64,000 nt of DNA from Microbispora bryophytorum (lineage in GTDB: Bacteria > Actinomycetota > Actinomycetes > Streptosporangiales > Streptosporangiaceae): contig NZ_VIRL01000016.1 in NCBI RefSeq assembly GCF_006874465.1, positions 1 to 64,000 on the forward strand, read 5' to 3'. Positions within the stretch are counted from its first letter, which is position 1. Each line of letters starts with the position of its first letter. Shown in pieces: positions 25,275 to 40,394 of this stretch. Below the pieces are notes generated by a model that worked only from the letters and a program-made list of their open reading frames with translations, did not search any database and had not been told where the DNA came from. Made by a program: the position numbers and the translations under genes.

Positions 25275-25347
25275 TAGCCCACGTTTGTGGGGTTGTGTTA
25301 CCTGCTCGTCCCCGGCTCATACTCGACCTGCGACGCGTTCCGGTCAG
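25275..25347 (+). promoter_or_regulatory. RiPP promoter A (copy 1 of the shared element)
   Basis: A 22-bp box, TAGCCCACGTT followed by TGTGGGGTTGT (25275-25296), then 21 bp, CATACTCG (25318-25325), 8 bp, and CGCGTTCCGGTCAG (25334-25347). The box is identical in copy 2 (40394-40373, minus strand) and the spacings are the same. CATACT may serve as -10. The rest of 25143-25274 holds only imperfect dyads (e.g. TAGGGGTC/GACCCTA around 25182-25206). Confidence 0.8.
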
Positions 25348-25410
25348 GCCGGGGACGAGCGGGAGAGCCGCTCACATCGCTCAGGAGCAGACCGAAAGCA
25401 GGAGGGCGAA

Positions 25411-25431
25411 GTGAAGGGCAGGCTGTGTTGA
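25411..25431 (+). CDS. Possible 6-codon leader ORF before the ABC ATPase gene
   Basis: GTG AAG GGC AGG CTG TGT TGA encodes MKGRLC and has the best SD in this leader (GCAGGAGGG, 4 nt before the GTG). Its TGA overlaps the in-frame TTG at 25428 of the ATPase gene (TTGA). It could couple translation of the ATPase, or be a coincidence of a misplaced start; no function is claimed. Confidence 0.35.
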   Translation: MKGRLC

Positions 25432-26366
25432 GAGATGTCGTGACGGCCGTTGGGGTCACCAAGCGCTATCGAGGCAGCGAGAGACCGGCCGTGGACGACG
25501 TCTCCTTCGAAATCGCCGAGGGGGAGACCGTCGGGCTTCTCGGCCCGAACGGCGCCGGCAAGACGACACTCATCAAAATGATCTGCGGGGTCACCACCCC
25601 CACCTCCGGTGAGATCCGGGTCTTCGACGCCGATCCGGTGCGCCAGCCCGTCCTCGCGAAGAGCGGCATCGGGGCGATGCACCAGACCGGTCCCTTCGAC
25701 ATGATGCTGCCGGCGCTCGACAACCTCCGGATCGCCGCCCGGTTCCGCGGGCTGCGGTGGCGCGACGTGCGGCCGTGGGCGTTGGAGGTGTCGGACTTCC
25801 TCGGCCTCGCCGGTTCGATGCAGCGCCTTGTCTTCCAGATGTCGGGCGGCCAGCGGCAGCGGTTGCAACTGGTGCGGGCGCTGCTCACCACCCCGCAGCT
25901 GCTCATCCTCGACGAGCCCTCCGCCGGCCTGGACGTCGCGGGACGGCGCCAGGTCGAGCGCTTCGTGACCTGGCTGCGCGAGGAGCACGGCGTGACGGTG
26001 CTGTGGACCAGCCACCACATCGACGAACTGGAGCGCAACAGCCAACGCGTCCTCGTCGTCGACCGGGGAAAGGTGCTGCGCTTCGCCAAGCCGCGCGAAC
26101 TCGTGGAGGAGTTCGGCAGCACCCACCTGCTGGTGACCGTCGAAGACCCCGCCGCGGGCGGCCTCGTCGCCGCCTGGGCGGAGTCCGCCGGGCTGCGGGC
26201 CAAAGCCGAGGACAACGAGGTGCGCATCGACGACGCGAACGCGCGCGACGTGCTGCCGGAGCTGTCCCGATACTGCCAGGACCACGCGATCGCGATCACG
26301 GGAGTGTCGACCGCCGTGGACTCGCTTGAGGAGGTCTTCCTCCGGATGACCGGAAACGAGGGCTGA
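25425..26366 (+). CDS. ABC transporter ATP-binding protein of the RiPP locus
   Basis: About 313 residues from GTG 25425 (TTG 25428 and GTG 25440 are near alternatives; the reading frame is open further upstream but lacks an SD there). Walker A GLLGPNGAGKTTLIKMI, Q-loop GAMHQTGPFDMML, signature MSGGQRQRLQLVRALL, Walker B LLILDEPSAGLDV, H-loop WTSHHIDEL. DrrA-type ATPase with a C-terminal accessory domain. With the next gene it forms an ABC-2 exporter, probably for the mature peptide or for self-protection. First gene of the ABC-YcaO-TfuA-P450-methyltransferase operon. Confidence 0.88.
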   Translation: MLRDVVTAVGVTKRYRGSERPAVDDVSFEIAEGETVGLLGPNGAGKTTLIKMICGVTTPTSGEIRVFDADPVRQPVLAKSGIGAMHQTGPFDMMLPALDNLRIAARFRGLRWRDVRPWALEVSDFLGLAGSMQRLVFQMSGGQRQRLQLVRALLTTPQLLILDEPSAGLDVAGRRQVERFVTWLREEHGVTVLWTSHHIDELERNSQRVLVVDRGKVLRFAKPRELVEEFGSTHLLVTVEDPAAGGLVAAWAESAGLRAKAEDNEVRIDDANARDVLPELSRYCQDHAIAITGVSTAVDSLEEVFLRMTGNEG

Positions 26367-26368
26367 CG

Positions 26369-27181
26369 ATGGCCGCCGGGCTGCACTTCCACACCGCGCC
26401 CCCCGCCCGGACCGCGAGGGCGGCGGACCTGTCCGCGGTGCTCTACCGGGAGTACGCGCTGCTCGCCCGCAACCGGGTCTACCTCATCCTCGGCCTGACG
26501 CCGATGCTGGTGTACCTGCTGCTGGTGAACACCTCGCTGAGCAACCTCATCAGGGCCGTCGACTACAAGGGCGTCAGCGTGGGGTTCGCGGTCTTCCTGC
26601 TCCCCATGACGCTGGCGATGTCGGTCGTCAGCGCGGCGGGCACGTCCGCGATGGCCGTGTTCCAGGAGGAGATGAGCGGGGTGGCCACGCAGTTGTGGTC
26701 CTACCCCATGCGCCGGTCGCGCTTCCTGCTCGGCAAGATGATCGCCGGAGTGTCGCTCGTGCTGGGGCAGACCCTGCTGGGCCTCGCCGTAGCGGCGATC
26801 ATGTTCGACCTCCCGTTCGGCATGGAGAACTGGCTCGGGCTGCTGACGGCGCTCGCGCTGTCGGCCCTGGCGCTGAACGGGCTGTACCTGGCGGCCGCGA
26901 TCACGATCACGGACTACCAGGCCTTCATGGTGCTGTCGAACGTGTCGATGCCCGTTCTCGTCTTCAGCGCCCCCTCGATGTACACCACCGAGAGCATGCC
27001 GACCGTGCTGCAGTGGATCTCCGTGGTCAACCCGCTGACATACGCGATCAACGGCATGCGGGACGCCGCGGTCTTCGGCTTCGGCGAGGCATGGGTGGAC
27101 CTGCTCGTGCTGGCGATCATGGCGGTCGTCGGCTACGCCGTGGGCGGCCGGGCCCTGCTCAACCGCGCCCGCAACATCTGA
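26369..27181 (+). CDS. ABC-2 type transporter permease of the RiPP locus
   Basis: 270 residues, six predicted helices: VYLILGLTPMLVYLLLV, VSVGFAVFLLPMTLAMSVVSA, then the ABC-2 features AVFQEEMSGVATQLWSYPMRRSRFLLGKMI, VLGQTLLGLAVAAIMF, ALALSALALNGLYLAAAI and LVLAIMAVVGYAVGGRALL. Starts 2 bp after the ATPase stop. Partner of that ATPase. Its last five codons and stop are echoed downstream in a run of 15-bp repeats. Confidence 0.87.
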   Translation: MAAGLHFHTAPPARTARAADLSAVLYREYALLARNRVYLILGLTPMLVYLLLVNTSLSNLIRAVDYKGVSVGFAVFLLPMTLAMSVVSAAGTSAMAVFQEEMSGVATQLWSYPMRRSRFLLGKMIAGVSLVLGQTLLGLAVAAIMFDLPFGMENWLGLLTALALSALALNGLYLAAAITITDYQAFMVLSNVSMPVLVFSAPSMYTTESMPTVLQWISVVNPLTYAINGMRDAAVFGFGEAWVDLLVLAIMAVVGYAVGGRALLNRARNI

Positions 27182-27274: not shown

Positions 27275-27348
27275 GCGCACCATCCGAACCCGCCGGCTCT
27301 ATCCGGCACCTCACCTCGGCACCTCATCTCGACCAGGGCAAGGGGACG

Positions 27349-28512
27349 ATGCGGACAGACACCTCCTCCCACTCATGGATCCTCTCCCTTCCTGACCAGT
27401 CGAAGGTCCGGTTGCCGGGGACGGACCGGGCCAGCTCCCCGGCCGCCTCACTGGAGATGGCCGGCCGGGCCGGGCGCAGGGCCGGGATCACCCGGGTCGC
27501 GGACATCACGATGCTCGACACCCTCGGCATCCCGACGTTCCAGGCGATAAGACCCACGGCCCGGACCCTGGCCGTCTCCCAGGGGAAGGGCGTCACCGCC
27601 GACCTGGCGAAGCTGTCGGCGATGATGGAGGCCATCGAACTCTGGCACGCCGAGCAGCCCATGCGGCCGGTCGCCACGACCTCCCCCCGCGAGGTGGCCG
27701 GAAAGCTGGGCTACGACGTCCACGCGCTCCCGCTGTGCACGCCGACCCTGCTGCACGACGGCCTTCCGGTGGACTGGGTCGCCGCCAAGTCACTGGTCGA
27801 CGGGGCGCGGACCCTCGTCCCGAAGGACGTGGTGGAGTTCACCCTCGTCCGCAGGACGGGCTGGAACCCGCCGGTGTTCTTCTCCTCGACCAACGGCCTG
27901 GCCAGCGGGAACACGCAGGCCGAAGCCGTACTGCACGCGTTGTACGAGGTGATCGAACGGGACGCGGTGACGGGCTTCATGATCGGCGGTGACCGAGGCG
28001 TCCGGGTCGACCCGCGCTCGCTCGGGTCGCCGGTCGTCGACGACCTGTGCGTGACGATGGAGCGGGCCGGGGTCCGCCTGGAGGCGAGGTCCCTGACCTC
28101 GCCCACCGGGCTGCCGTGCTTCGTCGCCCGGATCACCTGTGACGACTATCCTCCGCCGTTCCTGGGCTTCGGCTGCCACCTGAGCTCGGACATCGCGCTC
28201 AGCCGCGCCCTCACCGAGGCCGCGCAGGCCAGGCTGGGCTACGTCTCGGGCGCGCGTGACGACCTGCGTCCCGACATCCAGGAGGACCTGGGCGCCAGGC
28301 GCCGGCCGGAGCCGCCGCGGGAGGCCGAAGCGCCGATATCGCCCATGCACGCGCACGAGAGCCTGGTCGACGACCTGGAGGACGTGGTGAAACGGGCCGC
28401 GGTCGCCTTCTCGCACCCGCCCCTCGTCGTCGACCTGACGAGGGAGGACATGGGTGTCCCGGTCGTCAGGGTGCTGGCGCCGGGGAGCCGCGTATGCCCG
28501 GAGGTTTTCTGA
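27349..28512 (+). CDS. YcaO-domain protein (TfuA-partnered type)
   Basis: 387 residues. ATP-site motifs: AKLSAMMEAIELWHAE, SGNTQAEAVLHALYEVIERDAV (about residues 186-208) and LTEAAQARLGYVSGARDD (about 288-305). The C-terminus (SRVCPEVF) lacks the PxPxP tail of azoline cyclodehydratases and there is no fused or adjacent E1/ocin-ThiF partner, while tfuA follows directly; this pattern is known from peptide backbone thioamidation enzymes, so thioamide formation on the precursor is the leading idea. SD AGGGGAC. Stop and the next ATG overlap in a repeated TGATGAG junction. Confidence 0.92.
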   Translation: MRTDTSSHSWILSLPDQSKVRLPGTDRASSPAASLEMAGRAGRRAGITRVADITMLDTLGIPTFQAIRPTARTLAVSQGKGVTADLAKLSAMMEAIELWHAEQPMRPVATTSPREVAGKLGYDVHALPLCTPTLLHDGLPVDWVAAKSLVDGARTLVPKDVVEFTLVRRTGWNPPVFFSSTNGLASGNTQAEAVLHALYEVIERDAVTGFMIGGDRGVRVDPRSLGSPVVDDLCVTMERAGVRLEARSLTSPTGLPCFVARITCDDYPPPFLGFGCHLSSDIALSRALTEAAQARLGYVSGARDDLRPDIQEDLGARRRPEPPREAEAPISPMHAHESLVDDLEDVVKRAAVAFSHPPLVVDLTREDMGVPVVRVLAPGSRVCPEVF

Positions 28513-28552
28513 TGAGCGGGGTCTTCTGATGAGCGGGGATGTTCTGATGAGC
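28494..28552 (+). repeat. Repeated stop-start junction between YcaO and TfuA genes
   Basis: TTCTGATGAGC occurs three times (around 28507, 28524 and 28542) in units of 17 and 18 bp separated by GGGG. Each copy offers a TGATG stop-start overlap; the first ATG dead-ends after five codons, the second (28529) and third (28547) open the tfuA frame. Confidence 0.85.
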
Positions 28553-29917
28553 TCGCCGAACGTGGTCGTCTTCACCGGCCCCACGATCTCCCGTGACGAG
28601 GTCCTGAGCGTCCTGCCACAGGCGCGGGTACGGCCGCCCGTGGCTCGCGGCGACCTTCTCTCCGAGTCCTGGTGCCCGGACGACACCGCCGTCATCATCG
28701 ACGGCTACTACCGCGAGCGGCTGTCGGTGGGCCACAAGGAGATCCTCTGGCTGCTCGACGAGGGTGTCCACGTCATCGGCGCGGCCAGCATGGGCGCGTT
28801 GCGCGCGGCGGAGCTGAGCCCGTACGGCATGAGCGGCGCGGGGACCGTGTTCGACATGTACGCGACCGGCGAGGTCGACGGGGACGACGAGGTCGCCGTG
28901 GTGCACGGACCGGCCGACCGGGGATACCCCGCCGGCACGGTGGCGCTGGTCAACATCCGGTACGGCTGTCGCGAGGGCGCGCGGACGGGCCTGATCCCGG
29001 CGGCGGCCGGGGAGCGGATCGTCCGGGCCGCGAAGGCGCTGCCCTTCATGCGGCGGAGCTGGCGCGAGCTGGACGCGGCGCTGGACGCGGCGGTGGACGT
29101 GGCGGCGGGCTCCGGCGACCGCGACCATCTCGCAACGCTGCAGCGGCTGATCGGCACGGGTGAGTGGGACGTCAAGCGGCTGGACGCGATAGCGGCGCTG
29201 CGGGCGGTCGGCGGGCGCACTGCCGAAGCGTCCAGTGAGAGGTCCGGCGAGGGGTCCGCGGACTGGGAGGCCGGCACGGCGCTGACGGGGATCACCCACT
29301 ACGAGGCGCTCAAATGGCGGTCGAGGCGCGAGTACGCGCCCGGCAGGTGGATGACCGACCTCGACGTCGTGAACGCGGGGCGGCTGTTCGGCGACGACTA
29401 CCCCCGCCTGCACGAGGAGGCGCTGACCGGCCTGCTGACGGACTTCGCCGCGGCCCAAGGCCTCGACCTGGAGGCGTACGCCCGCGCCCGGCTCGGGGTC
29501 GCCGAGCCCGCCGCCCTGCCGTCCGTCCTCGCGTCGTGGCTTACGGAGGCGGAGCTCGCCACCCTCGCCGTCGCCGAGCAGCTCCGGCTGGTCATGGTGC
29601 GGGTCTGGCCGATCTGGCAGTCGGAGGACTGGAGGCCGGTCGTCCTGGAACGGGTCAGGGAGTCGGACCGCTGGCACGAGTGGTCCGAGATCGTCGCCCG
29701 CGCCGACGAGGCCGCGGAGCGGACCCGCGGCAGGCTCGCCGTCCCGCCGCCGGAGATCTGCGCGAAAATCTTCCTGCGCCACTGGCAGCGCAAGGGGACC
29801 ACGGTGGAGGTGGAGCTGGCCCGGCGGGGTTTCACCGGCATGCCGGAGCTGGGGAACACCGTCAGGAGGTTCTTCGCCCTCGACGTCCAGAACGCGCGTG
29901 CCCCGGAGCGTGCCTGA
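28529..29917 (+). CDS. TfuA-like protein
   Basis: 462 residues from ATG 28529 (ATG 28547 is equally possible). TfuA core at about residues 8-150: VVVFTGPTISRDEVLSVLP, VRPPVARGDL, AVIIDGYYRERLSVGHKEILWLLDEGVHVIGAASMGALRAAELSPYGM and GPADRGYPAGTVALVNIRYG. The remaining 300 residues are helical, without a motif I recognise. TfuA proteins act with YcaO to deliver sulfur or otherwise enable thioamidation of backbone amides. Length is large for the family, which is often about 200-450 residues. The end is followed by 21-bp repeats containing TGATGAGCAGGGC. Confidence 0.9.
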   Translation: MSGDVLMSSPNVVVFTGPTISRDEVLSVLPQARVRPPVARGDLLSESWCPDDTAVIIDGYYRERLSVGHKEILWLLDEGVHVIGAASMGALRAAELSPYGMSGAGTVFDMYATGEVDGDDEVAVVHGPADRGYPAGTVALVNIRYGCREGARTGLIPAAAGERIVRAAKALPFMRRSWRELDAALDAAVDVAAGSGDRDHLATLQRLIGTGEWDVKRLDAIAALRAVGGRTAEASSERSGEGSADWEAGTALTGITHYEALKWRSRREYAPGRWMTDLDVVNAGRLFGDDYPRLHEEALTGLLTDFAAAQGLDLEAYARARLGVAEPAALPSVLASWLTEAELATLAVAEQLRLVMVRVWPIWQSEDWRPVVLERVRESDRWHEWSEIVARADEAAERTRGRLAVPPPEICAKIFLRHWQRKGTTVEVELARRGFTGMPELGNTVRRFFALDVQNARAPERA

Positions 29918-29975: not shown

Positions 29976-30068
29976 ATGAGCACGGGAGCCGCTGACGCCG
30001 GCCGGGCCGGCCCCGGCGGACGGCCATGTCCGGAACCGTCGGCGCGCCCCGTGAGGAGAGGGTCATGA
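29976..30068 (+). CDS. Possible 30-residue ORF coupled to the P450 gene
   Basis: ATG 29976 opens MSTGAADAGRAGPGGRPCPE and ends in a TGA that overlaps the P450 ATG (ATGA). No SD of quality and no similarity I know. It may only keep ribosomes moving across the gap from tfuA to the P450 gene. Reported as a candidate, not as an established gene. Confidence 0.3.
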   Translation: MSTGAADAGRAGPGGRPCPEPSARPVRRGS

Positions 30069-31330
30069 CCGCGACCACGATCGAGCAGCCGTTCGACCCG
30101 GCGGCCGCGCGGCATCGTCCGAACCCCCACCCGCTGCTCCACCGCATGCGCGAGCACGCGCCGGTCTACCGGTACGTGAGCCCGGTCAGCGGCCGGGTGC
30201 TGTGGTACCTGACGCGATACGCCGACGTGCAGCGGGTGCTGCTCGATCCGGACGTCGGGCGTCAGCTCGACCGGCTGCCGCCCGAACTCGCCGCGCCGCA
30301 CCGCCGGGCGGAGAGCCGTGACCCGCTGGCCATGCTGCGGCGTAACGTGTTCCATCTCGACCCACCCGACCACACGCGCATACGCCGGCTGATGGCGCCG
30401 GCCTTCGGCACCCGTACGGTGGCCGTGCTGGAGCGGCACGTCCAGCGGGTCGCCGGTGAGCTGGTGGACGGCATGGCGGCCGCCGGAGGCGAGGCCGACC
30501 TGATCCGGGACCTGGCGCTGCCGCTGCCGATCCTGGTCGTCGCCGAGCTGCTCGGCCTGCCCTCCGAGGACCGCGCCCGGCTGCGCGGGTGGAGCGACGA
30601 GATCGTGGGCAGCGGGGACGCGTTCCGGGTGCGCCGCGCCGGCATGGAGTTCATGGCGTACGCCGGCGAGAGGATCGACGAGCGGCGGGCGCATCCGGGG
30701 GAGGACCTGCTGTCCCGGCTCGCCGAGGCGGAGCGGGCGGGCGCGATCGGCCGCATGGAACTGATCTCCAGCGTGTTCCAGCTGCTGCTCGCCGGGGACG
30801 AGACGACGGTCAACCTGATCGGGAACGGCGTGCTGGAGCTGCTGCGGCACCCCCGCGAGCTGGAGCGGCTGCGTGCGCGCCCCGAGCTGATCGGCTCGAT
30901 GGTCGAGGAGGCGCTGCGGTACAACGGCCCCGTCGGGCACTCCCGGCCGCTGTACGCCCTCGCCGACGTGGAGATCGGCGGCAGAGCGATCCCTCGTGGG
31001 GACATCGTGGTCCCGGTGCTGCTGGCTGCCAACCGCGATCCGGCGGTCTTTCCCCGGCCGGACGTCTTCGACATCGGCCGCAGCCCGAACCGCCATCTGG
31101 GCTTCGGCCACGGCGCCCACTTCTGCCTCGGCGCGGCGCTGGCGCGGATGCAGGCCGCGGCCGCGATCGGCGCGCTGCTGCACGGCTTCCCCGAGATCGC
31201 CCTGGCGGTCGACCCCGCCGACCTCGAGTGGACGCCCGACCTGTTCCTGCACGGCGTACGCCGCCTGCCCCTGCGGTTACGCGCTCACCGGACACCTGTC
31301 AGCCGCCGAAAGGAGCCGGCCCATGAGTGA
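30065..31330 (+). CDS. Cytochrome P450 of the RiPP locus
   Basis: 421 residues from ATG 30065 with GAGGAGAGG upstream. I-helix LLLAGDETTVNL, K-helix ExxR in EEALRYNGP, and heme loop FGHGAHFCLGAALAR with the thiolate Cys near residue 354. Bacterial soluble class I P450 (CYP107-like style). Oxidative tailoring of the RiPP is the expected role: hydroxylation or cross-linking. Overlaps the methyltransferase start by 8 bp, so the two are tightly coupled. Confidence 0.92.
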   Translation: MTATTIEQPFDPAAARHRPNPHPLLHRMREHAPVYRYVSPVSGRVLWYLTRYADVQRVLLDPDVGRQLDRLPPELAAPHRRAESRDPLAMLRRNVFHLDPPDHTRIRRLMAPAFGTRTVAVLERHVQRVAGELVDGMAAAGGEADLIRDLALPLPILVVAELLGLPSEDRARLRGWSDEIVGSGDAFRVRRAGMEFMAYAGERIDERRAHPGEDLLSRLAEAERAGAIGRMELISSVFQLLLAGDETTVNLIGNGVLELLRHPRELERLRARPELIGSMVEEALRYNGPVGHSRPLYALADVEIGGRAIPRGDIVVPVLLAANRDPAVFPRPDVFDIGRSPNRHLGFGHGAHFCLGAALARMQAAAAIGALLHGFPEIALAVDPADLEWTPDLFLHGVRRLPLRLRAHRTPVSRRKEPAHE

Positions 31331-32357
31331 CCGACCGCGAGGCCTCGCGGGATACGCGAACCTGTCCCGGATGGCCTTCGGCTACGCGTCCTCGCAGATC
31401 CTCTACGCGGCCGTCCGGCTCGGCGTGCCGGAGCTGCTGGCGCAGGGGGACGTACCGGTGACGCGGCTCGCGGAGTCGACCGGGTCGGACCCGCACGCGC
31501 TGGGCCGGCTGCTGCGCGCGCTGGTGGTGCTGGGCGTGGCCGAAGAGGGGGAGCCCGGGTGCTTCACGCTGACCGAGCAGGGGCAGCCGCTGCGCGCCGA
31601 CCACCCGTGGTCGATGCGCTCCAGCCTCCTGCTGCTCGGCGACCCCGACACCTGGCGGGCGTGGGGGGCGCTGACCCACAGCGTTAGGACCGGTGAGGTG
31701 GCGTGGGACCACGTGCACGGCAGACCGCTGTTCGACCACCTCGCCCGCCACCCTGAGCTGTCGGCGGTGTTCAACACAGCGATGCGCGAGGGCACCGAAC
31801 GGATCGCGCCCGCGCTCCCCAGGGCGTACGACTTCAGCGGCGCCCACACCGTGGTCGACGTCGGCGGCGGGAACGGCTCGCTGCTGGCCGCGGTGCTGGC
31901 CGCCACCCCGGGCATCAAGGGAATCCTGTTCGACACCGCCGAGGGGATCGCGGGCGCCGCTGAGGAGCTGCGGCGGGCGGGACTGTCCGACCGGTGCTCC
32001 ATCGAGGCAGGCGACTTCTTCGAGGCGGTGCCCGAGGGCGACGTCATGCTGGTGAAGGGTGTCCTGCACGACTGGGACGACCGGCGCTGCATCGCTCTTC
32101 TGCGCGGTTGCCGCAGGTCGATCGCGGCGGACGGCCGCCTGCTCGTGCTGGAGCCGGTGATGCCGTCCGGTCTCGGGACGCCGGAGGCGGCAGGGGCCGT
32201 CATGAGCGACATCGCCATGCTCGTCTACACCGGTGGCCGGGAGCGCGGCATGACCGAGTTCCGGGACCTGTTCGCCGCGGCGGGCTTCGAGCTGGCCGAG
32301 GTCACGCCGCCGCTGGGAGGCTCGGAGATCCGGGTCCTCGTGTCGAAGCCGGTCTGA
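31323..32357 (+). CDS. SAM-dependent O-methyltransferase (family 2)
   Basis: 344 residues. N-terminal dimerisation winged helix (LAGYANLSRMAFGYASSQILYAAVRLGVPELLA), then SAM motif I VVDVGGGNGSLLAAVLA, motif II GIKGILFDTAEGIAGA, GDFFEAVPEGDVMLVKGVLHDWDD containing the typical H-D-W-x-D catalytic segment, and LLVLEPVMPSG. Small-molecule O-methyltransferase type as in polyketide and RiPP tailoring. SD AAAGGAG within the P450 end. Last gene of the plus-strand operon; its last six codons and stop are echoed three times. Confidence 0.9.
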   Translation: MSDRPRGLAGYANLSRMAFGYASSQILYAAVRLGVPELLAQGDVPVTRLAESTGSDPHALGRLLRALVVLGVAEEGEPGCFTLTEQGQPLRADHPWSMRSSLLLLGDPDTWRAWGALTHSVRTGEVAWDHVHGRPLFDHLARHPELSAVFNTAMREGTERIAPALPRAYDFSGAHTVVDVGGGNGSLLAAVLAATPGIKGILFDTAEGIAGAAEELRRAGLSDRCSIEAGDFFEAVPEGDVMLVKGVLHDWDDRRCIALLRGCRRSIAADGRLLVLEPVMPSGLGTPEAAGAVMSDIAMLVYTGGRERGMTEFRDLFAAAGFELAEVTPPLGGSEIRVLVSKPV

Positions 32358-32505: not shown

Positions 32506-33483
32506 CTAAGGGACAAGGACGATCTTGCCCGTCGTGCGGCGGTTTTCCAGGTCGGCGTGCGCGTCACCGGCGCGGCCGAGGGGATAGCGGGTGATCAGTG
32601 GGTGGAGTACGCCGTCGGCGGCTGCGCGGATCGCGCGGTCCTGCAGCGCGTTGATGGTGCCGGCGCGTTCCAGCATCTGCGGGCCGATCGCCCAGGTGAC
32701 GGTGCAGGCGTGCTCGATGATGTCGTCGGTGGTGATGCGGGTGGCGGCCCCGGAGGACCAGCCGTGCAGGAGAAATCTTCCGCCGGGGGCGAGCAGGTCG
32801 AACGCCTGCCGGCCCGCGGTTCCTCCGACGCCGTCGAACACGATGCCGACTCCTCTGCCCTTGAGGGCGTCGCGCACCGCCTCCGGCCAGTGCGGGTCGC
32901 GGTAGTCGACCGCGATGCCGGCGCCCAGGGACCTGGCCAGCCGAACCTTTTCCGGCCCGCCGGCCACGCCGACGACGATCACGCCCTGGTGGCGTAGGGC
33001 CTGCACGAGCAGAGCGCCGATGCCGCCGGCCGCCGAGGTGACCAGCGCGACGTCGCCGGGCTTGGCGTTTGAGCTGTCGAGGATCCCGAGCGTCGTCGTG
33101 CCCGTGGTGATCACCGCCACCGCGGTTTCCGCGGTCAGATGGTCGGGGATGTGGTGAAGGGCGTCGATCGTCGTCACCGCCTGTTCGGCGTAGCCGCCGT
33201 ACGACTCGAGCGTGCCGACGACCCGGCGGCCCAACCAGCTCCCGTCGACGTCCGGGCCCAGCGCGCTCACGACACCCGCGACCTCACCCCCCAGAACGAC
33301 AGGTAGTTCGGGAGCACTGTGCGGGCCCACGCCGCGACCGGCCCGCAGCGTCGTCTCGATGAAGTGCACGCCGCTGGCCTGCACGTCGATGCGGACCTGC
33401 CCCCTGCCGGGCACCGGTGCAGCGACCTGCTCGTATCGAAGGTTCTCGGCGGGCCCGAACTCGTGGAGCCTGACTGCGTACAC
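32506..33483 (-). CDS. Zinc-independent quinone oxidoreductase (MDR family)
   Basis: 325 residues from GTG 33483 with GAAAGG upstream. VYAVRLHEFGPAENLRYEQVAAPVPGRGQVRIDVQASGVHFIETTLRAG, VLGGEVAGVVSALG, nucleotide motif VTSAAGGIGALLVQALRHQG, IVFDGVGG and C-terminal LENRRTTGKIVLVP fit the QOR/zeta-crystallin branch without structural zinc Cys. NADPH-dependent reduction of quinones or enones. First of a minus-strand trio (with MFS and FMN reductase) sitting between the two RiPP operons; membership in the RiPP pathway is uncertain. Confidence 0.88.
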   Translation of the reverse strand: MYAVRLHEFGPAENLRYEQVAAPVPGRGQVRIDVQASGVHFIETTLRAGRGVGPHSAPELPVVLGGEVAGVVSALGPDVDGSWLGRRVVGTLESYGGYAEQAVTTIDALHHIPDHLTAETAVAVITTGTTTLGILDSSNAKPGDVALVTSAAGGIGALLVQALRHQGVIVVGVAGGPEKVRLARSLGAGIAVDYRDPHWPEAVRDALKGRGVGIVFDGVGGTAGRQAFDLLAPGGRFLLHGWSSGAATRITTDDIIEHACTVTWAIGPQMLERAGTINALQDRAIRAAADGVLHPLITRYPLGRAGDAHADLENRRTTGKIVLVP

Positions 33484-33600
33484 GGATGATGCGCCTTTCT
33501 CGAAAGAGCGGCCGGCCACGCCGGATTCGCCGTACGCGTGCGGGTCCCGGAGCGTGCTGTCCGGTGACCGGCCTGCAACCGGCGCCGTGCCTGCCCGGGA

Positions 33601-35061
33601 TCAACGGGTGCGGACCGCGGTCGCGGTCACCGGCGCCGCGGTCGACGGGCCAGGGGAACGCCGTCGGCGCGGCAGGAACAGCGCGGGTACGCTCGCCAGG
33701 GCCAGCAACGTCACCGCCCACCAGTAGGTGTGCTGGAACGCGGCGGCCTGCTGCCGCTGGCTCGCGGCGTCGGCCATGTGCGAGGCGAGGACCACCGACA
33801 TCAGCGCGGTTCCGATGGATGTGCCGATCTGAGAGACGATGTTGATCGTGGTGCTTCCGGAGGGAACGTCATCGGGGGCCAGCGTGCGGGTCGCCGTCGT
33901 GTTGACCGGCATCATCACCATGCCGACACCGGCGCCCATCACCAGCATCGCCGCGCACAACCGCCAGTAGGGCGTGCCGGGTCCGAGTTGAAGGCCGAAC
34001 AGGGACAGCCCGAGTGCGGCGACCACGATGCCGGAGACGACCATCAGCCGGGGAGACACCCGGTCGATCCGCCGCGTGGCGATCTGCATCGAGGTGCCTA
34101 CGGCGACGGCCAGCGGAACGCCCAGCAGGCCGGACTCGGTCGCGGTGAGTCCTCGTGTCGTCTGGTAGTACATCGGCGTCAGCAGCATCGAGCCGAAGTA
34201 GCCGGCGGGGAACAGCACCATCGTCGCGATGCCGGCGGCGAAGGTACGGTCGCGGAACAGGCGCAACTGCAGGAGCGGGTGACGGGTGGTCAGGCCGCGC
34301 GCGACGAATCCGGCGATCAACAGCAGTCCCGCGACGATGGGCGGCAGCGCGCCCTGCAGCGTGAAGTCGCCGTGCGCGCCGCCGGCGGTCAGGCCGTAGA
34401 TCAGCAGGGCCAGGCCCGGCGACAGCATCAGCAGGCCCGGCACATCCAGCCGGCGCGCCGGCCGCGTCTCGTCGCTTGGCAGCAGCCGCGCCGCGAGTAC
34501 GAGCGCCACCGCGCCGACAGGCAGGTTGACCAGGAAGATCCAGTGCCAGGAAGCGGTGTCGATCAACCAGCCGCCCAGTATCGGCCCGCTCACCGGACCG
34601 ATCAGGACCGGAACACCCAGCACGGCCATCGCCCTGCCCATGTGCTCCCGGTCCGCGGCGCGGATGACCATCGCCATGCCGACCGGCACCAGCAGGCCGC
34701 CGCCGAGCCCCTGCACCACCCGGAACAGCACCAGTGTCTCGATGCCGGACGACAGCGCGGCCACCGCGGAGCCGCCGGTGAACAGGGCCAAGGCGGTGAG
34801 GTAGGTGCGCTTGGCGCCGAAACGGCCCATAGCCCAGGCGGCCACCGGGATCACGGCGCAAAGAGCGAGCGTGTAGCCGGTCGCCACCCACTGCACGGTG
34901 GCGAGTGGCGCGTCGAACACCGTCGCCAGCGGGTGGAGAGCGACGTTGACGATGGTCACGTCGAGCACGGCCATGATCGAGCCGATGACTACGACCACGA
35001 GGGTACGGGCGAGAGCGGCCGGGGGTCCGGCGGTTCGTGCCGGTCCGGTGACGGTGCTCAT
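33601..35061 (-). CDS. MFS exporter, DHA2 family
   Basis: 486 residues, 14 predicted helices. MAVLDVTIVNVALHPLATVF (DHA2 motif D1), GRFGAKRTYLTALALF (motif A), RVVQGLGGGLLVPVGMAMV, GPVSGPILGGWLIDTASWHWIFLVNLPVG (motif C) and TRHPLLQLRLFRDRTFA (DHA2 loop). Drug or metabolite efflux by proton antiport. Stands 6 bp from the FMN reductase gene and 117 bp from the quinone reductase gene; under the divergent TetR by position. Confidence 0.9.
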   Translation of the reverse strand: MSTVTGPARTAGPPAALARTLVVVVIGSIMAVLDVTIVNVALHPLATVFDAPLATVQWVATGYTLALCAVIPVAAWAMGRFGAKRTYLTALALFTGGSAVAALSSGIETLVLFRVVQGLGGGLLVPVGMAMVIRAADREHMGRAMAVLGVPVLIGPVSGPILGGWLIDTASWHWIFLVNLPVGAVALVLAARLLPSDETRPARRLDVPGLLMLSPGLALLIYGLTAGGAHGDFTLQGALPPIVAGLLLIAGFVARGLTTRHPLLQLRLFRDRTFAAGIATMVLFPAGYFGSMLLTPMYYQTTRGLTATESGLLGVPLAVAVGTSMQIATRRIDRVSPRLMVVSGIVVAALGLSLFGLQLGPGTPYWRLCAAMLVMGAGVGMVMMPVNTTATRTLAPDDVPSGSTTINIVSQIGTSIGTALMSVVLASHMADAASQRQQAAAFQHTYWWAVTLLALASVPALFLPRRRRSPGPSTAAPVTATAVRTR

Positions 35062-35067
35062 CGCCCG

Positions 35068-35685
35068 TCACTTGCCGTACGGATGCTCGGCGCGAGCGGT
35101 GCGCAGCGCGCGGCCCCACCACAACAGCTGGTCGACCATGTTCTTCGCGGCACTCTCGCACACCGCCGCATCCAGCGGCCTCCCGTCATCGCCGAGCCGT
35201 GACCAGGGCCCGTGCAGGCTGACGGTGTCACGCACAGTCATGGCGTGCAGCTCGGCGAAGACCTGGCGAAGCTGCTCGACGGCACGCAGCCCGCCCCCCA
35301 GCCCGCCGTAGGAGACGAAGCCGATCGGCTTGGCCTGCCATTGCGTGTAGTGCCAGTCGATGAGGTTTTTCAAGGAGGCCGGAAAGCTGTGGTTGTACTC
35401 GGGCGTGACGACGACGAACGCCTCGGCGGCAGCCAGGCGGGGGCTGACGTCGGCGAGAGCGGCCTGAGTTTCCGGGGCGGGGGCGGGAAGGCCGTCCCAC
35501 CCGGGCATCGACACGGGAAGGTCCAGGTCGGCGATGTCGACGACGTCAAGCTCGATGTCGGTGCGGTGGCCCACATGGTTGGTGAACCATTCGGTGACCG
35601 ACAGGCCGGTGCGGCCGCCGCGGGCGCTTCCGATGATGACGGCGACCCGGAGCGCGGAGTCGTTCGGAGGTGTGTGGCCAGGCAT
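35068..35685 (-). CDS. NADPH-dependent FMN reductase
   Basis: 205 residues from ATG 35685 with AGGAG 7 nt upstream. Flavodoxin-like fold: VAVIIGSARGGRTGLSVTEWF (FMN phosphate loop), VVVTPEYNHSFPASLKNLIDWHYTQWQAKPIGFVSYGGLGGGLRAVEQLR with the typical PEYN motif. Supplies reduced flavin or reduces quinones. First gene of the minus-strand cassette, divergent from TetR with a TACAA/TTGTA operator between. Confidence 0.9.
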   Translation of the reverse strand: MPGHTPPNDSALRVAVIIGSARGGRTGLSVTEWFTNHVGHRTDIELDVVDIADLDLPVSMPGWDGLPAPAPETQAALADVSPRLAAAEAFVVVTPEYNHSFPASLKNLIDWHYTQWQAKPIGFVSYGGLGGGLRAVEQLRQVFAELHAMTVRDTVSLHGPWSRLGDDGRPLDAAVCESAAKNMVDQLLWWGRALRTARAEHPYGK

Positions 35686-35741
35686 CGTGGTCTCCTGGTT
35701 CTCTCGTTGCGTTGCCACGATTCGCAGCACATCGGGTAACG

Positions 35742-35757
35742 TACAACGAGCATTGTA
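35742..35757. promoter_or_regulatory. TetR operator-like dyad
   Basis: TACAA-N6-TTGTA (35742-35757) lies midway between the FMN reductase and TetR starts; a second TTGTA half-site is at 35774-35778. Position and symmetry fit TetR control of both directions. Confidence 0.6.
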
Positions 35758-35811
35758 AAAAGTAAAACGATGGTTGTAATAGACCTCGATCGGCATGTGA
35801 GGGACAAGGCG

Positions 35812-36498
35812 ATGACAAGCACGGGCGCCAAGGGCGAGACAACGACCACCCGGCCGCGGCGGAGCCGGGCGGATAAGGCGACAGCGATCGTGCAGGCCGC
35901 GTGCGAGGTCTTCGGACGGGACGGCTACTCCCGGGCCAGCATCGACACGATCGCCACCGAGGCCGGCGCCTCGACTCGAACCATCTACAACCACTTTCCG
36001 GGCGGGAAGGAGGAGCTGTTCCGCTCCGTCATGCAGTGGAGCTCGGAGCGCGTCAGGGACGAACAGCTCGCTCAGCTGCGCAGATACCTGGATCCGGAGC
36101 GCCCGCCGCATCCCGACGACCTCGAACGCGACCTGCTCGTGCTGGCCCGCGCCTGGGTCGGCCTGATGGCCGACTTCCGCGACCACTTCTCACTGGTGCG
36201 GCACATCTACGCCGAAGCCGGGCACATCCCGCCCGAGGTCCTGGAAGCCTGGCAGGAGGCCGGACCGCGCGCCGTGGGCCGCGAGGTGACCGCCGCCATG
36301 AGCGCGTTGGCCGACCGCCGCCTGATCGACGTCCACGGCGACCCGGCCCAGGCCACCGTCCATTTCATGGCGTTGATCTCGACCGAGATCACGCAACGGT
36401 CCTACTGGGGCCTCAGCCCGCTCCCGCAGGAGGAGGCGGACCGGCTGACCGCAGCCGGAGTGCGGGCGTTCCTCCGGGCGTACGGCTCCGCAGGGTGA
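35812..36498 (+). CDS. TetR family regulator
   Basis: 228 residues from ATG 35812 (AGGGA 8 nt upstream; the frame is open to 35770 without an SD). HTH: KATAIVQAACEVFGRDGYSRASIDTIATEAGASTRTIYNHFPGGKEELFRSVM, followed by a helical ligand domain with WVGLMADFRDHFSLVRHIYAEAGHIPPEVLEAWQEAGP. Likely represses the divergent FMN reductase-MFS-quinone reductase genes. Convergent with the RiPP flavin monooxygenase gene. Confidence 0.88.
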   Translation: MTSTGAKGETTTTRPRRSRADKATAIVQAACEVFGRDGYSRASIDTIATEAGASTRTIYNHFPGGKEELFRSVMQWSSERVRDEQLAQLRRYLDPERPPHPDDLERDLLVLARAWVGLMADFRDHFSLVRHIYAEAGHIPPEVLEAWQEAGPRAVGREVTAAMSALADRRLIDVHGDPAQATVHFMALISTEITQRSYWGLSPLPQEEADRLTAAGVRAFLRAYGSAG

Positions 36499-36585: not shown

Positions 36586-38055
36586 TCAGCCGGTCGCGGC
36601 GGCGAACCGTAAGCGCAGCCACGCGGCCAGGGCCGGGTGCTGCCCGATCGCCTCCTCGCCGGTGAGCAGTGGCTCCGGCCGCCCGGTCAGCACCCGGGCG
36701 ATCTCCGACCTGTCCGTCGCGGTGTCGTCGCAGATCAACGTCTGGACGCCGAAGAACGCGGCGGCGAGGCGCGGGCTGCTCAGCTTCGCCTGGGCCAGGC
36801 GCGTGCGGATCTCGCGTTCGAACGCGTTGGGCTCCCGTCGCGGCGCATCGTCGCCGCCGGCCCGCTCAGCGACCCCTTCTGTGACCTGCTCCCCGGCCCG
36901 CTCCCCGATTCGCGCTGTGGCCCGCGCTGTGACGCGCTGCCCGTCCTGCTCGATTGCCATCCGCCAGGACCGCTCCGCCTCCGCCGCGAGGGCGGCCTGA
37001 AGCCCGGCGAACAGGGACGGCCCGATTCCGTGCCGCGCGAGTTCGTCGCGCAGCCTGAGCGCGCCCAGCGCGGCGACCGACATCCCGTGCGAGTGGATGG
37101 GATTCACCGCGACGGCGGCGTCGCCGACGACGGCGAAACCGGCGGGCAGGCGCGCCCGCTCGAAGAACCGCCTCCTGTTGACGGTGTCGCGGTACGGCCA
37201 GACGGCACCGAGGGGGGTGGCCTCCGCCATGAGGTCCGCCACGATCGGGTGGCGCAGCGAGCGCGCGAAGGCCGTGAAGCCCTGCTCGTCCGTCGGCGGC
37301 TCGCCGCCCCGGGTGCCGGTCAGCGTGACGATCCATCGGCCGTCCTCGACGGGGAACAACGTCGCCCCCCGAGCCGGCTGTCCCTTCGCCGTCCCCGGGT
37401 GCAGCATGATCGCCGGGATCGCGGCGGCCAGGTCGCCGGGCGCCTGGTAGAGGCGCGTCGCGTAGGCCAGTCCGGTGGCGACCGACACCTCCTCGATGTC
37501 CCCAGCGCCGACCCCGGCGAGCCACCGGGGCGCGTGCGACCGGCGTCCCGTCGCATCGACGACGAGGTCCGCGCGTACGGTCTCGGGCGGGGCGCCCCGC
37601 CGGCTGACCGAGACTCCGGTGATGCGGGCCTCGTCTCCGGTGAGCCCGAGCGCCCGCGTGTCCTCCCAGACCTCGACGTCGCCGCCGCCGAGCGCGCGCC
37701 GCCGCACCACCTGGTCCAGCAGCCCGCGGGTGCAGGAGATCAGGTGGGCGTCGGTGCGCAGACGGCGGAACCAGCCGTCGGCGGAGAAGATGAGGGCGTC
37801 GCCGGGCAGGCCGCGCAGGTGCGCGCCGTTCGCGAGGAGGGCGTCGACCGTCCCGGGCAGCAACGCGTCCAGCGCCCGCGCGCCTCCGGCCACGAGCACG
37901 TGACTGTGGTGCGACTGGGGCAACCCCCGCCGCGGACGCGGACCGGACGGGTAGCGGTCGCCTTCGACCAGGACCACCTCGTCCGCGTGCCCGGCGAGCA
38001 CCGCGGCGGCGAGCACTCCCGCGAGGCCGCCGCCGAGGACGACCGCCCTGCTCAT
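36586..38055 (-). CDS. FAD-dependent monooxygenase of the RiPP locus
   Basis: 489 residues from ATG 38055; a GTG at 38136 gives a 27-residue repetitive extension (TGTVSTGTLSTGT), and neither start has a good SD. AVVLGGGLAGVLAAAVLAGHADEVVLVEGD is the FAD motif; RRGLPQSHHSHVLVAGGARALDALLPG, LVVDATGRRSHAPRWLAGVG and FAVVGDAAVAVNPIHSHGMSVAALGALRL (GD motif) place it with squalene-epoxidase-like/geranylgeranyl-reductase-like oxidases. The halogenase WxWxIP motif is absent. A presumed late oxidative tailoring enzyme; last gene of the precursor operon. Confidence 0.87.
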   Translation of the reverse strand: MSRAVVLGGGLAGVLAAAVLAGHADEVVLVEGDRYPSGPRPRRGLPQSHHSHVLVAGGARALDALLPGTVDALLANGAHLRGLPGDALIFSADGWFRRLRTDAHLISCTRGLLDQVVRRRALGGGDVEVWEDTRALGLTGDEARITGVSVSRRGAPPETVRADLVVDATGRRSHAPRWLAGVGAGDIEEVSVATGLAYATRLYQAPGDLAAAIPAIMLHPGTAKGQPARGATLFPVEDGRWIVTLTGTRGGEPPTDEQGFTAFARSLRHPIVADLMAEATPLGAVWPYRDTVNRRRFFERARLPAGFAVVGDAAVAVNPIHSHGMSVAALGALRLRDELARHGIGPSLFAGLQAALAAEAERSWRMAIEQDGQRVTARATARIGERAGEQVTEGVAERAGGDDAPRREPNAFEREIRTRLAQAKLSSPRLAAAFFGVQTLICDDTATDRSEIARVLTGRPEPLLTGEEAIGQHPALAAWLRLRFAAATG

Positions 38056-38077
38056 CGGGTGAGGCCGGGCGGAAGAG

Positions 38078-38146
38078 GTGCCGGTCGACAGAGTGCCGGT
38101 CGACACGGTGCCGGTGAACGGGGTGCCGGCTGACACGCTGCCGGCG
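38078..38146 (-). repeat. Imperfect 13-15-bp repeats between the PqqD-like and monooxygenase genes
   Basis: On the plus strand GTGCCGGTCGACA-type units recur about five times from 38078 to 38146 (e.g. 38089, 38106). On the minus strand they read as in-frame Ser-Thr-Gly-Thr repeats if translated. Similar junction repeats mark the other operon of the locus. Confidence 0.75.
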
Positions 38147-38152
38147 GACGCG

Positions 38153-38464
38153 TCACGACAGCGACTCTTCCTTGACCGCGGGCTCCTCGGCAGGGACCTC
38201 CTCGATGAGGCCCTGCTCGATCATCGCGCCGATGAACTCCTCGACGTCGGTCACGATGCGCCTGCTCATCGCGGAGTTGCTGCCCGCGAAGTCGCGGGAC
38301 AGCTTGAACATGACCGGCTCCCGTTCGCCGTCGCTCGCCACCAGCCTCCAAATCCTGGAGCCGGTGTCGTTCAGGCTGTGAAAGTCGCCCGTCTCGGTGT
38401 GGTAGAGCGAGATGCCCTCCCCGGTCTCCTGCCAGATCACGGCCTCGCTGATCCGCAGTGACAC
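38153..38464 (-). CDS. PqqD-like RiPP recognition element protein
   Basis: 103 residues from GTG 38464, 6 nt after GAGGAGG; the next ATG is out of frame. RISEAVIWQETGEGISLYHTETGDFHSLNDTGSRIWRLVASDGEREPVMFKLSRDFAG...VEEFIGAMIEQGLIEEV is the PqqD winged helix-turn-helix: N-terminal strands, the conserved LN-x-T-G-x-x-I-W motif and C-terminal helices. Such proteins bind the precursor leader and present it to the radical SAM enzyme. Starts 11 bp after the radical SAM stop. Confidence 0.9.
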   Translation of the reverse strand: MSLRISEAVIWQETGEGISLYHTETGDFHSLNDTGSRIWRLVASDGEREPVMFKLSRDFAGSNSAMSRRIVTDVEEFIGAMIEQGLIEEVPAEEPAVKEESLS

Positions 38465-38475
38465 ATCGACCTCCT

Positions 38476-39939
38476 CTATACCGGCGTGATGGGAAGCAAC
38501 TCGCCGACCCTGACGGTGTCGCGCGAGGGGCGAACATAGGTCTTCCAGTCGTCGAAGACGGGATGGACGTCGCCGTTGGCGACCAGGCGGGGCGTCGTCA
38601 TCGCGCGGTCGTCGGCGGCGAGCTCCGACGGGGCGATACCGGCCTCCAGCCACAGCTGGGTGGCGATGCCGTGCCGCAGGATCCGGCACTGGTGGCGGCT
38701 GTTGCGCCGCAGGTCCCCGGACTCCGCCATGTGCGCGGCCCGGCATCCGCCGCCGCAGGACGCCTTGATGTAGCACTTCGCGCAGTCGGCGTGGTAGTCG
38801 CCGTCGAGCACGGTGCTGGTGCGCATCCCACGCAGGAGCGGCCCACCGAAGATCTCCGACAGCTGCTGCCGCCGTATGTTGCCCGCGTGGTGCGACCGTC
38901 CGGTGACGAGCTTGCACGGGTAGACGTCGCCCAGCGAGTTGATGTAGATCTCGTTGCCGCCCATCCCGCAGTTGGCCTTCACCGAGCAGGGCGTCAACGG
39001 CCTCGGGCCGTCCGGCAACAGCTTGCCGGCGGCTGGAGACGTCCAGGTGATCTGCTGGATCCGCATGTGGTCGTCCCAGCCGAAGTCGTACTCGTCGGTC
39101 TCGCCCCGGCCCAGGTCGTTGTGGTACATCAGCCGGATGCTGTGGACCTCGAGTCCCTCGGCGAACTTGGCGAAGTCCTCCAGCTCCTCGACGTTCTCGG
39201 AGGTGACGATGTGGTTGATCCGCGGCACCACGCCGGCGTCGTTGAGCAGCCGCAGGGCGTGGTAGGTCCGGGCGAAGGAGCCGGCGCCGCGGGTGCGGTC
39301 GTGGGTCTCGGCCGTGCCGCCGTCGACGCTCACCGTGACCATGCCGAACAGCTCGGCGAACCGCTTGGCCTGGGCGGGCTTCCTGATCATCGTGGCGTTG
39401 GTGATGATGTTCGACGTCAGCCCGCTGTCGTTGGCGTGCTCCACGATCCGGAACAGGTCCTTGCGGAGCATGGGCTCGCCGCCGGTGAAGATCATGGTCT
39501 TGGCCCCGAAGGCGGCGACCTGGGAGACCAGGTCGAGCGATTCTTCGGTGGTGAGCTCCCCGGGGAGGCATTTCTCGGAGGAGGCGTAGCAGTACGGACA
39601 GCGGAGGTTGCAGCCGTCGGTGATCGCGTAATACACCTGGCGGAGCGCCGGCTCCCTGATGCTGAGCTTCGGACGGTTCCCGTTGTAGTAGACGATGCAG
39701 TTCAGGATGAGCTTGGCGAGGGTCCGATCGGTCTCGTCGGTCTCGTCGAGGGGGGGCGGCTCCCCGCCCGCCCGGGGACGGGCCAGGGCCGCCAGGATGG
39801 CGAACTCGCGTGCGTCGAGGACGTACCGGCCGCCCACCTGCGGGTTGACGACCAGGTACTTCCCGTCGTGCACGAAGTAGGTCAGGTCTGCCGGTACGTC
39901 GATCAACGAGCGGTTCCGGGCGAGTTTCCCAGGCATCAT
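38476..39939 (-). CDS. Radical SAM/SPASM peptide maturase
   Basis: 487 residues. Residues 1-90 (YFVHDGKYLVVNPQVGGRYVLDAREFAILAAL) look like a second leader-recognition domain. Radical SAM cluster C110-x3-C114-x2-C117 in DGCNLRCPYC, GGEP at 152-156. SPASM with Cys318, 324, 342, then C386-x2-C389-x5-C395-x3-C399 and C418, a complete auxiliary-cluster pattern. Enzymes of this class form thioether (sactionine/ranthionine), C-C or C-O links on peptides. Second gene of the operon, right after the candidate precursor, with which it should act. Confidence 0.93.
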   Translation of the reverse strand: MMPGKLARNRSLIDVPADLTYFVHDGKYLVVNPQVGGRYVLDAREFAILAALARPRAGGEPPPLDETDETDRTLAKLILNCIVYYNGNRPKLSIREPALRQVYYAITDGCNLRCPYCYASSEKCLPGELTTEESLDLVSQVAAFGAKTMIFTGGEPMLRKDLFRIVEHANDSGLTSNIITNATMIRKPAQAKRFAELFGMVTVSVDGGTAETHDRTRGAGSFARTYHALRLLNDAGVVPRINHIVTSENVEELEDFAKFAEGLEVHSIRLMYHNDLGRGETDEYDFGWDDHMRIQQITWTSPAAGKLLPDGPRPLTPCSVKANCGMGGNEIYINSLGDVYPCKLVTGRSHHAGNIRRQQLSEIFGGPLLRGMRTSTVLDGDYHADCAKCYIKASCGGGCRAAHMAESGDLRRNSRHQCRILRHGIATQLWLEAGIAPSELAADDRAMTTPRLVANGDVHPVFDDWKTYVRPSRDTVRVGELLPITPV

Positions 39940-40023
39940 TCCCCTTTACGCTCCCAGCCGCAGGTGCGGCCCCAAATTCTGTGGGTGACGCGCGGCAGGA
40001 GCCGCACCCGCGAACCGTTCTGA

Positions 40024-40305
40024 CTACTCTGCTCCGGACCCGGAGCCCGACCAGGCCCCGCACAGGCACTTGCCCTCGACGGGAGCCACATAGGTGTGGG
40101 CCTCGACCTCGGGCCGGGACCACTCGCCGCCGGCACCGGCGTGCGCCAGCACACCGGGCAGTGCGTCGGGGAGCTTGTCCTTGAGCGAGATGAGCAGGTC
40201 GACTTCCTCCCGGGTCAAGGTGGCGAACGCCTCCTCGACTTCGGCGGCCAGCGGGCTGTTCAGGATGCCGGCTTCACGCAGAGCTTCCCTCGGATCGAAG
40301 GCCAT
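40024..40305 (-). CDS. Candidate RiPP precursor peptide
   Basis: 93 residues with SD GAGGTGA. Residues 1-50 form an amphipathic leader (REALREAGILNSP, then LTREEVDLLISLKDKLP) reminiscent of leader families that feed radical SAM clusters (I recall an annotation 'aroma-sacti cluster domain' for similar starts; unverified). Residues 51-78 are Gly/Ala/acidic, and the C-terminus is KCLCGAWSGSGSGAE with the only two Cys (80, 82), a Trp (85) and Ser-Gly repeats. First gene after promoter B and directly before the radical SAM maturase. Core start and final product are not determinable from sequence. Confidence 0.82.
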   Translation of the reverse strand: MAFDPREALREAGILNSPLAAEVEEAFATLTREEVDLLISLKDKLPDALPGVLAHAGAGGEWSRPEVEAHTYVAPVEGKCLCGAWSGSGSGAE

Positions 40306-40321
40306 GCCTTCACCTCTCTGT

Positions 40322-40394
40322 CTGACGGGAATGCGGTGTATGACGAGTATGTGCTGGTAGGAGATGGGTGAGACAACCCCACAAACGTGGGCTA
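40322..40394 (-). promoter_or_regulatory. RiPP promoter B (copy 2 of the shared element)
   Basis: On the minus strand the 22-bp box (40394-40373) is identical to 25275-25296, followed after 21 bp by CATACTCG (40351-40344) and after 8 bp by CGCATTCCCGTCAG (40335-40322; 12 of 14 identical to copy 1). The precursor ATG is 16 bp further on. The divergent remainder 40395-40621 holds no gene. Confidence 0.82.

Follow-up and report, generated by a model that had tools for sequence, protein, structure and literature searches.

Within a 64,000-nucleotide stretch of DNA from the genus Microbispora (hereafter the window; part of a 198-kb contig in a 7.85-Mb genome of 137 contigs), the span 25275–40394 carries two convergent sets of genes for a ribosomally synthesised and post-translationally modified peptide (RiPP). 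We consider it likely that these form one cluster, in which both enzyme sets modify a single precursor to give a thioamidated CxC sactipeptide. Carrying this reading are the families to which the enzymes belong, the co-inheritance of the two operons, an operator sequence shared by both and a conserved precursor. Genes were called by codon composition, with the starts of the YcaO, TfuA, PqqD and O-methyltransferase genes corrected, and families were assigned by Pfam and NCBIfam scans. These scans bore out the ten-gene observation of the initial annotation: an ATP-binding cassette (ABC) transporter pair, YcaO, TfuA, a cytochrome P450 and an O-methyltransferase lie on the plus strand and, convergent with them, the precursor, a radical S-adenosylmethionine (radical SAM)/SPASM enzyme, a PqqD-type protein and a flavin adenine dinucleotide (FAD) monooxygenase (Table 1).

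The two operons are found together across relatives. Among 15 genomes of the same genus, orthologues of YcaO and of the radical SAM enzyme were both present in seven and, at orthologue identities, both missing from the other eight; distant YcaO matches occur in most of the 15. Across 341 genomes of the family, which we take to be Streptosporangiaceae, the radical SAM enzyme had a match (1e-80) in 32, 29 of them at no less than 71% identity and the other three at 51–54%, and YcaO had a match (1e-60) in 45. A YcaO orthologue (at least 65% identity) was present in 29 family genomes, a radical SAM orthologue in 29 and both in 28, always on one contig. As a negative control, the 17 YcaO matches at or below 46% identity share no contig with a radical SAM match, 15 being in genomes that lack such a match and two on other contigs. 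Beyond the family, both genes occur in two Winogradskya, in Streptomyces ISL-94 and TBY4 and in five genomes taken as Streptomyces. An apparent absence of YcaO from ISL-94 and TBY4 was rejected as an artefact of 10-kb flanks: longer stretches and a TfuA search recovered, on the same contigs, YcaO (62%), TfuA (58–60%), the permease (64–66%) and the ABC ATPase (69–70%), and the five genomes taken as Streptomyces were alike. Overall, for 37 of 38 radical SAM loci (at least 66% identity), spread over eight genera (six family groups, Winogradskya and Streptomyces), the same contig also carries a YcaO orthologue, the span being 4.8–15.7 kb. Operons that never co-occur in relatives, named by the initial annotation as the finding that would speak against it, are thus not what these genomes hold. 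When 396 genomes were sampled across the phylum, the window's own genome alone gave an StsB match (E ≤1e-150).

Gene order and content point the same way. Of the 37 loci, 26 have the radical SAM and YcaO genes on opposite strands and 11 have them on the same strand; in Winogradskya, a single co-directional run extends from the ABC ATPase through to the FAD enzyme, taking in all ten genes plus an S9 peptidase, with a largest gap of about 95 nt. When genes were matched across 39 loci (thresholds, >38% identity and >45% of length), the FAD monooxygenase, PqqD, radical SAM, precursor and ABC ATPase genes were each present in 38, and TfuA accompanied YcaO in all 38 YcaO-bearing loci. The P450 (30 of 39) and the O-methyltransferase (24 of 39, never without the P450) are, by this distribution, accessory to the cluster, and no window-like copy of either was found in the stretches of Streptomyces covered. 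The 4-kb insertion that parts the operons in this strain might suggest that two unrelated clusters have become neighbours by chance, but conservation across family genomes, the operator copies and the co-occurrence in 37 of 38 loci leave such a coincidence with next to no credibility.

The span is bounded by two identical, oppositely oriented 19-mers, one ahead of each operon, to which the initial annotation does not refer. Allowing up to three mismatches, the 19-mer had two matches, against a mean of 0.00 in 100 shuffles; assembly-wide, its 15-base core had three sites at no more than one mismatch, the two ahead of the operons being the sole perfect copies, and a reversed control pattern had two. 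We surveyed 42 loci (998 kb, including the G155 locus described below and three distant Sts loci) with a relaxed 16-base pattern at up to one mismatch, which gave 85 sites, three of them without an assigned gene, and none with the pattern reversed; the three distant Sts loci had no site to the relaxed pattern. A site lies 69–74 nt upstream of the precursor in all 38 loci (one mismatch being needed in L067, L075, L076 and G939) and ahead of the ABC ATPase gene in 28 of the 38 loci that have it, the survey finding none at that place in seven Streptomyces, two Winogradskya and L078. The palindrome adjoins a TTGT stretch in the window and elsewhere, with an ATACTC stretch further on ahead of many precursors, an arrangement that may correspond to a LuxR-type class II site. 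The 83-aa LuxR-type helix-turn-helix (HTH) protein encoded beside the span has a homologue in 39 of 39 loci and is a candidate activator that would bind the operator. Judged from sequence, then, the cluster is real and single, largely co-inherited and probably co-regulated.

Two further regulatory features were seen in the surveyed loci. In 13 loci (L068–L074, L079, L080, L082, L083, L085 and L086), a second operator-like site precedes the precursor by 102–141 nt. Beside the ABC gene, L079:2508-4316 encodes a SARP/BTAD regulator with an ATP-grasp-like N-terminus (PF14243, below cut-off), a member of single-linkage group c0 found in 30 of 36 loci.

Several points weigh against a single pathway. 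The loci share descent and, because they are related in this way, counts over loci are not independent events. The relaxed operator pattern was drawn up post hoc, from sites already seen; the ABC/YcaO genes of Streptomyces and Winogradskya lack an operator, and in Streptomyces the ABC ATPase and FAD monooxygenase genes are about 9.5 kb apart. Trees of the radical SAM enzyme and of YcaO (37 shared rows) agree on 20 of 34 splits, with support of at least 90 for several of the conflicts, which leaves room for partial exchange within the family; both trees group Streptomyces and Winogradskya beside the same rows (L076, L078 and L084), a joint placement that fits transfer of the gene pair together. 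In Nonomuraea candida (G142) the locus retains the precursor, radical SAM enzyme, FAD monooxygenase, P450 and an intact core motif, and YcaO, TfuA and the O-methyltransferase are missing; the gap left by YcaO and TfuA (L081:7130-7292) falls between permease and P450, making the strain a natural knock-out at the locus. With the core intact there and no local YcaO, no core residue tracks the presence of YcaO, and the site of the thioamide therefore cannot be placed. A distant YcaO/TfuA pair (41% and 32%) on another contig of this genome may or may not function in trans. Genome G155 (L089) has YcaO, TfuA and the HTH gene, with the operator 113 nt upstream of YcaO, and lacks the radical SAM enzyme and precursor; it looks like a remnant because some of its flanking genes match those of complete loci. 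Finally, the evidence tying YcaO to the peptide is indirect, and its action on this precursor is a prediction.

The loci of N. candida and G155 are what would be expected if one regulon governed two products, the radical SAM enzyme, PqqD element and FAD monooxygenase making a sactipeptide and the YcaO, TfuA, P450 and O-methyltransferase acting on some other substrate, which could be a protein or a peptide encoded elsewhere; a ribosomal protein is known to be thioamidated in another system (PMC13063428). We judge such a division improbable in view of the 37 of 38 co-occurrences, the single Winogradskya run, the common operator and the lack of a second conserved precursor, none being seen by eye among 975 open reading frames (ORFs) of 20–140 aa inside the cluster bounds that overlap listed genes by no more than 35%. 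The same four observations favour the proposal of the initial annotation that the two operons serve one pathway. Other conserved small-ORF groups were rejected as precursors, being antisense shadows or, in two groups, the operator read in translation.

Turning to the enzymes of this single pathway, YcaO and TfuA form an adjacent pair in which PF02624 and PF07812 both score above their cut-offs. YcaO scores 205 bits with the thioamidation model TIGR03266 and 109.8 bits with the SagD-type TIGR03604; the cluster stays below both equivalogs for McrA-glycine thioamidation (205 against a cut-off of 365 for TIGR03266; 166.3 against 235.2 bits for NF033432). The nearest solved structure to YcaO is MJ1094 (7.7e-29). 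The TfuA model (mean predicted local distance difference test (pLDDT) score 80.6; predicted template-modelling score 0.51) matches Methanosarcina acetivorans TfuA (6xp8; E 2e-12; template-modelling score 0.82 by target and 0.41 by query), the sole match at E ≤0.001, and its C-terminal half has no convincing match. A core rich in Cys and Ser would also suit a YcaO that makes azolines, or some other amide change, on those residues instead of thioamides; we hold this to be very unlikely, as TfuA is present in all 38 YcaO loci, the thioamidation model outscores SagD, the nearest structure is MJ1094 and the nine other cluster genes have no match to cyclodehydratase partner or azoline dehydrogenase families in Pfam or NCBIfam. 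A second YcaO gene lies elsewhere in the same genome (G000:C93:308812-309837).

For the SPASM enzyme, the initial annotation had allowed for thioether or carbon cross-links. The type is better defined than that, since the enzyme scores well above the cut-off of the StsB sactipeptide maturase model (NF045574, 912.7 bits, versus 87.3 for the PapB ranthipeptide model). The CX3CX2C and SPASM cysteine spacings, taken as simple patterns, are each present in 41 of 41 homologues, and the nearest structures to its fold model (mean pLDDT 75.4) are 5why, SkfB and SuiB, the best match being 5why, titled for sactipeptide thioether formation. The N-terminus of the model may resemble a recognition element in secondary structure alone, and was not used as evidence. 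Formation of beta- or gamma-thioethers, as in ranthipeptides, or of carbon–carbon links instead of alpha-thioethers would agree with the antiSMASH label that such clusters carry in the relevant section of PMC8120280, and the bond type is not fixed by sequence family; the gap between the StsB and PapB scores, the fold match to 5why and a core in which Cys precedes the acceptor, like StsA-like peptides, make this outcome rather unlikely. The remaining motif counts were not used either way, the patterns being too narrow or rows incomplete: YcaO EAIE (8 of 38) and ExxER (33 of 38), P450 haem (22 of 30), FAD monooxygenase GxGxxG (24 of 35), TfuA FxGPT (1 of 38) and one radical SAM pattern (28 of 41).

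The precursor lies above the cut-off of NF045559 ("StsA-related sactipeptide RiPP", CxC; 135.8 versus 75 bits) and below that of the StsA family proper (NF045558; 17.5 versus 42 bits). We collected ORFs with the leader domain at a cut of 1e-5, excluding a weak leader match in L067 (E 2e-4), and defined as core-bearing those with C-x-C-x-x-W, counting as results proper only the tighter pattern and the WxxP motif. Both WxxP and C-x-C-[GAS]-x-W-S-G-[SA]-G are present in 43 of 43 core-bearing ORFs (41 distinct), and the remaining 31 leader-domain ORFs (29 distinct) have neither core nor WxxP. Together with the PF05402 match of the PqqD-type protein, the WxxP in the leader predicts binding by this RiPP recognition element. 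At the distant StsB loci L090–L092, short StsA-like peptides upstream of the radical SAM gene have, by eye, W-x-x-P, CxCxC and a Gly/Ala/Ser tail and lack the core Trp; their genomes have no YcaO match at 1e-60, and no FAD monooxygenase match was found in the 17–20 kb covered. A core with two Cys and a Trp thus accompanies the added enzymes. The core Trp and the flavoenzyme in particular both occur in 38 cluster loci, whereas the stretches covered at the three StsA-type loci showed neither.

Coreless copies of the leader domain (the NF045560 'aroma-sacti' domain) without WxxP were observed at L079:14994-15197 and at equivalent positions in 29 of 38 loci, the seven Microbispora, L076 and L078 having none. 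They end mostly in QELKLV or HDLKLL, are divergent from the precursor in several loci and are possibly a regulator or a decoy.

From these families and their context we infer enzyme substrates, modification sites, step order, activator and export as follows. In most Streptosporangiaceae members the cluster is split into two convergent operons with one operator common to both, and probably one LuxR-type activator would act on it. The PqqD element would bind the 93-aa precursor through the W-x-x-P leader motif, and the StsB-type enzyme would join the two core cysteines to alpha-carbons of the Ser/Gly-rich tail as sactipeptide thioethers. YcaO with TfuA would turn at least one backbone amide of the same core into a thioamide, and the invariant core Trp may be oxidised by the flavoenzyme, whose nearest solved relatives are Lsd18/LasC (5.8e-93) and MonCI (7.4e-81). 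Where present, the P450 (nearest solved, PksS, CYP267B1 and PikC) would put on a hydroxyl, which the O-methyltransferase (nearest solved, CalO6, 8.2e-104) would then cap. The ABC pair may serve product export or immunity. The product had been foreseen by the initial annotation as thioamidated, cross-linked, oxidised and methylated; our analysis upholds the unity of the pathway, the chemistry stays a prediction, and the steps of the P450 and O-methyltransferase become accessory ones. Because the cluster has two monooxygenases, a nominal gain of 16 Da would be ambiguous between a thioamide (+15.977) and a hydroxylation (+15.995).

Because the core Trp and the flavoenzyme go together, a more specific outcome can be conceived, in which the flavoenzyme epoxidises the indole of the core Trp and a neighbouring thioamide or amide traps the epoxide, giving, with the two alpha-thioethers already set, a thioamide-indoline sactipeptide. 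We regard this as a speculative and quite improbable elaboration. To our knowledge, a bond of the thioamide-indoline type has no precedent in RiPPs.

Between the convergent operons of the window lie four genes (32506–36498) for which none of the remaining 38 cluster loci has a match above the thresholds; the transporter of the major facilitator superfamily (MFS) among them has a weaker 31% match in L089. Going by gene content, the 4-kb gap is an insertion present in this strain alone among the loci examined, and the four genes are probably outside the pathway. Elsewhere in the window, a tRNA-Ala (GGC) gene lies at 57602–57691.

Table 1. Positions in the window, strands and supporting evidence for the cluster genes, operator copies and inserted genes (FMN, flavin mononucleotide).
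Feature	Position	Strand	Evidence
LuxR-type single-domain HTH regulator (candidate), 83 aa	24891..25142	-	PF00196 GerE 1.8e-5 and PF13384 6.2e-6, both above cut-off
Operator copy 1 (19 bp, with core CCCACGTTTGTGGG) ahead of ABC/YcaO operon	25275..25293	-	Identical to copy 2
ABC transporter ATPase, DrrA-like	25425..26366	+	Pfam/NCBIfam; 38/39 loci
ABC-2 permease	26369..27181	+	PF01061 2.5e-23
YcaO, thioamide-forming type by similarity	27349..28512	+	PF02624 2.4e-68; TIGR00702 above cut-off
TfuA, C-terminal half largely helical	28547..29917	+	PF07812 1.3e-40
Cytochrome P450, accessory	30026..31330	+	PF00067 1.2e-28; 30/39 loci
O-methyltransferase, accessory	31323..32357	+	PF00891 8.4e-48; 24/39 loci
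Insertion: zinc-type oxidoreductase, MFS, FMN reductase, TetR	32506..36498		Unmatched above thresholds in 38 other cluster loci
FAD monooxygenase, polyether-epoxidase-like	36586..38136	-	Nearest solved Lsd18/LasC, MonCI; 38/39 loci
Stand-alone PqqD-type RiPP recognition element	38153..38470	-	PF05402 8.1e-8, 32.9 bits vs cut-off 23.4; 38/39 loci
Radical SAM/SPASM sactipeptide maturase, StsB family	38476..39939	-	NF045574 912.7 bits (cut-off, 625)
Precursor peptide (93 aa) with leader domain, W-x-x-P motif and core CLCGAWSGSGSGAE	40024..40305	-	NF045559 135.8 bits (cut-off, 75)
Operator copy 2, 19 bp, ~70 nt upstream of precursor	40376..40394	+	Identical to copy 1

If the proposed pathway is correct, backbone thioamidation and radical thioether linkage would be combined on a single short core that hardly varies, and oxidation of its Trp would come in addition. 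The conserved operator would offer a handle for switching the cluster on, and natural variants are at hand for assigning steps, namely N. candida, without local YcaO, TfuA or O-methyltransferase, and the Streptomyces loci with their apparent lack of a window-like P450 and O-methyltransferase.

Parts of the system are shared with known pathways. Its flavoenzyme is related to the polyether epoxidases Lsd18/LasC and MonCI, which act on polyketide alkenes, whereas the target proposed here is a peptide Trp. The YcaO–TfuA pair is held in common with the pathways to thioviridamide, thiovarsolin and thioamidated thiopeptides; we know of no radical SAM thioether step in these. Sections of PMC13185837 deal with the mechanism of TfuA, the products there being thioviridamide-like, and the relevant part of PMC6511847 does not treat this cluster. 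Searches of open-licence PMC papers found no characterised product for the cluster.

The statement in the initial annotation that no described RiPP combines all of these enzymes was too strong, and the claim to novelty is weakened by a 2021 report (PMC8120280), which in the relevant section sets out gene cluster families of this architecture as predictions. Two such families, from Sphaerisporangium, Microbispora and Herbidospora, are described there with TfuA/YcaO, a SPASM radical SAM enzyme, a stand-alone PqqD, a P450, an O-methyltransferase and a precursor that contains several Cys and Ser residues; they resemble the present cluster in these genes and include its genus. They differ in being in-silico predictions classed by antiSMASH as ranthipeptides, and they are likened to the present cluster by description rather than by sequence; that section of the report mentions neither a FAD enzyme nor the StsA/StsB family, and likewise no shared operator and no members from Streptomyces and Winogradskya.

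A further close relationship is to the StsA/StsB/StsC sactipeptide system (NF045558, NF045574), with which the cluster shares an StsB-family radical SAM enzyme, a stand-alone PqqD element and the WxxP leader motif; in the StsA-like peptides of L090–L092, as here, a Gly/Ala/Ser tail comes after Cys. PMC12710340 describes, as a measured interaction, how the StsC element binds the leader of StsA by way of WxxP. The present cluster departs from that system in a precursor that falls under the StsA cut-off, whose leader domain is long and whose core contains a Trp, and in the addition of YcaO, TfuA, the FAD monooxygenase, the P450 and the O-methyltransferase.

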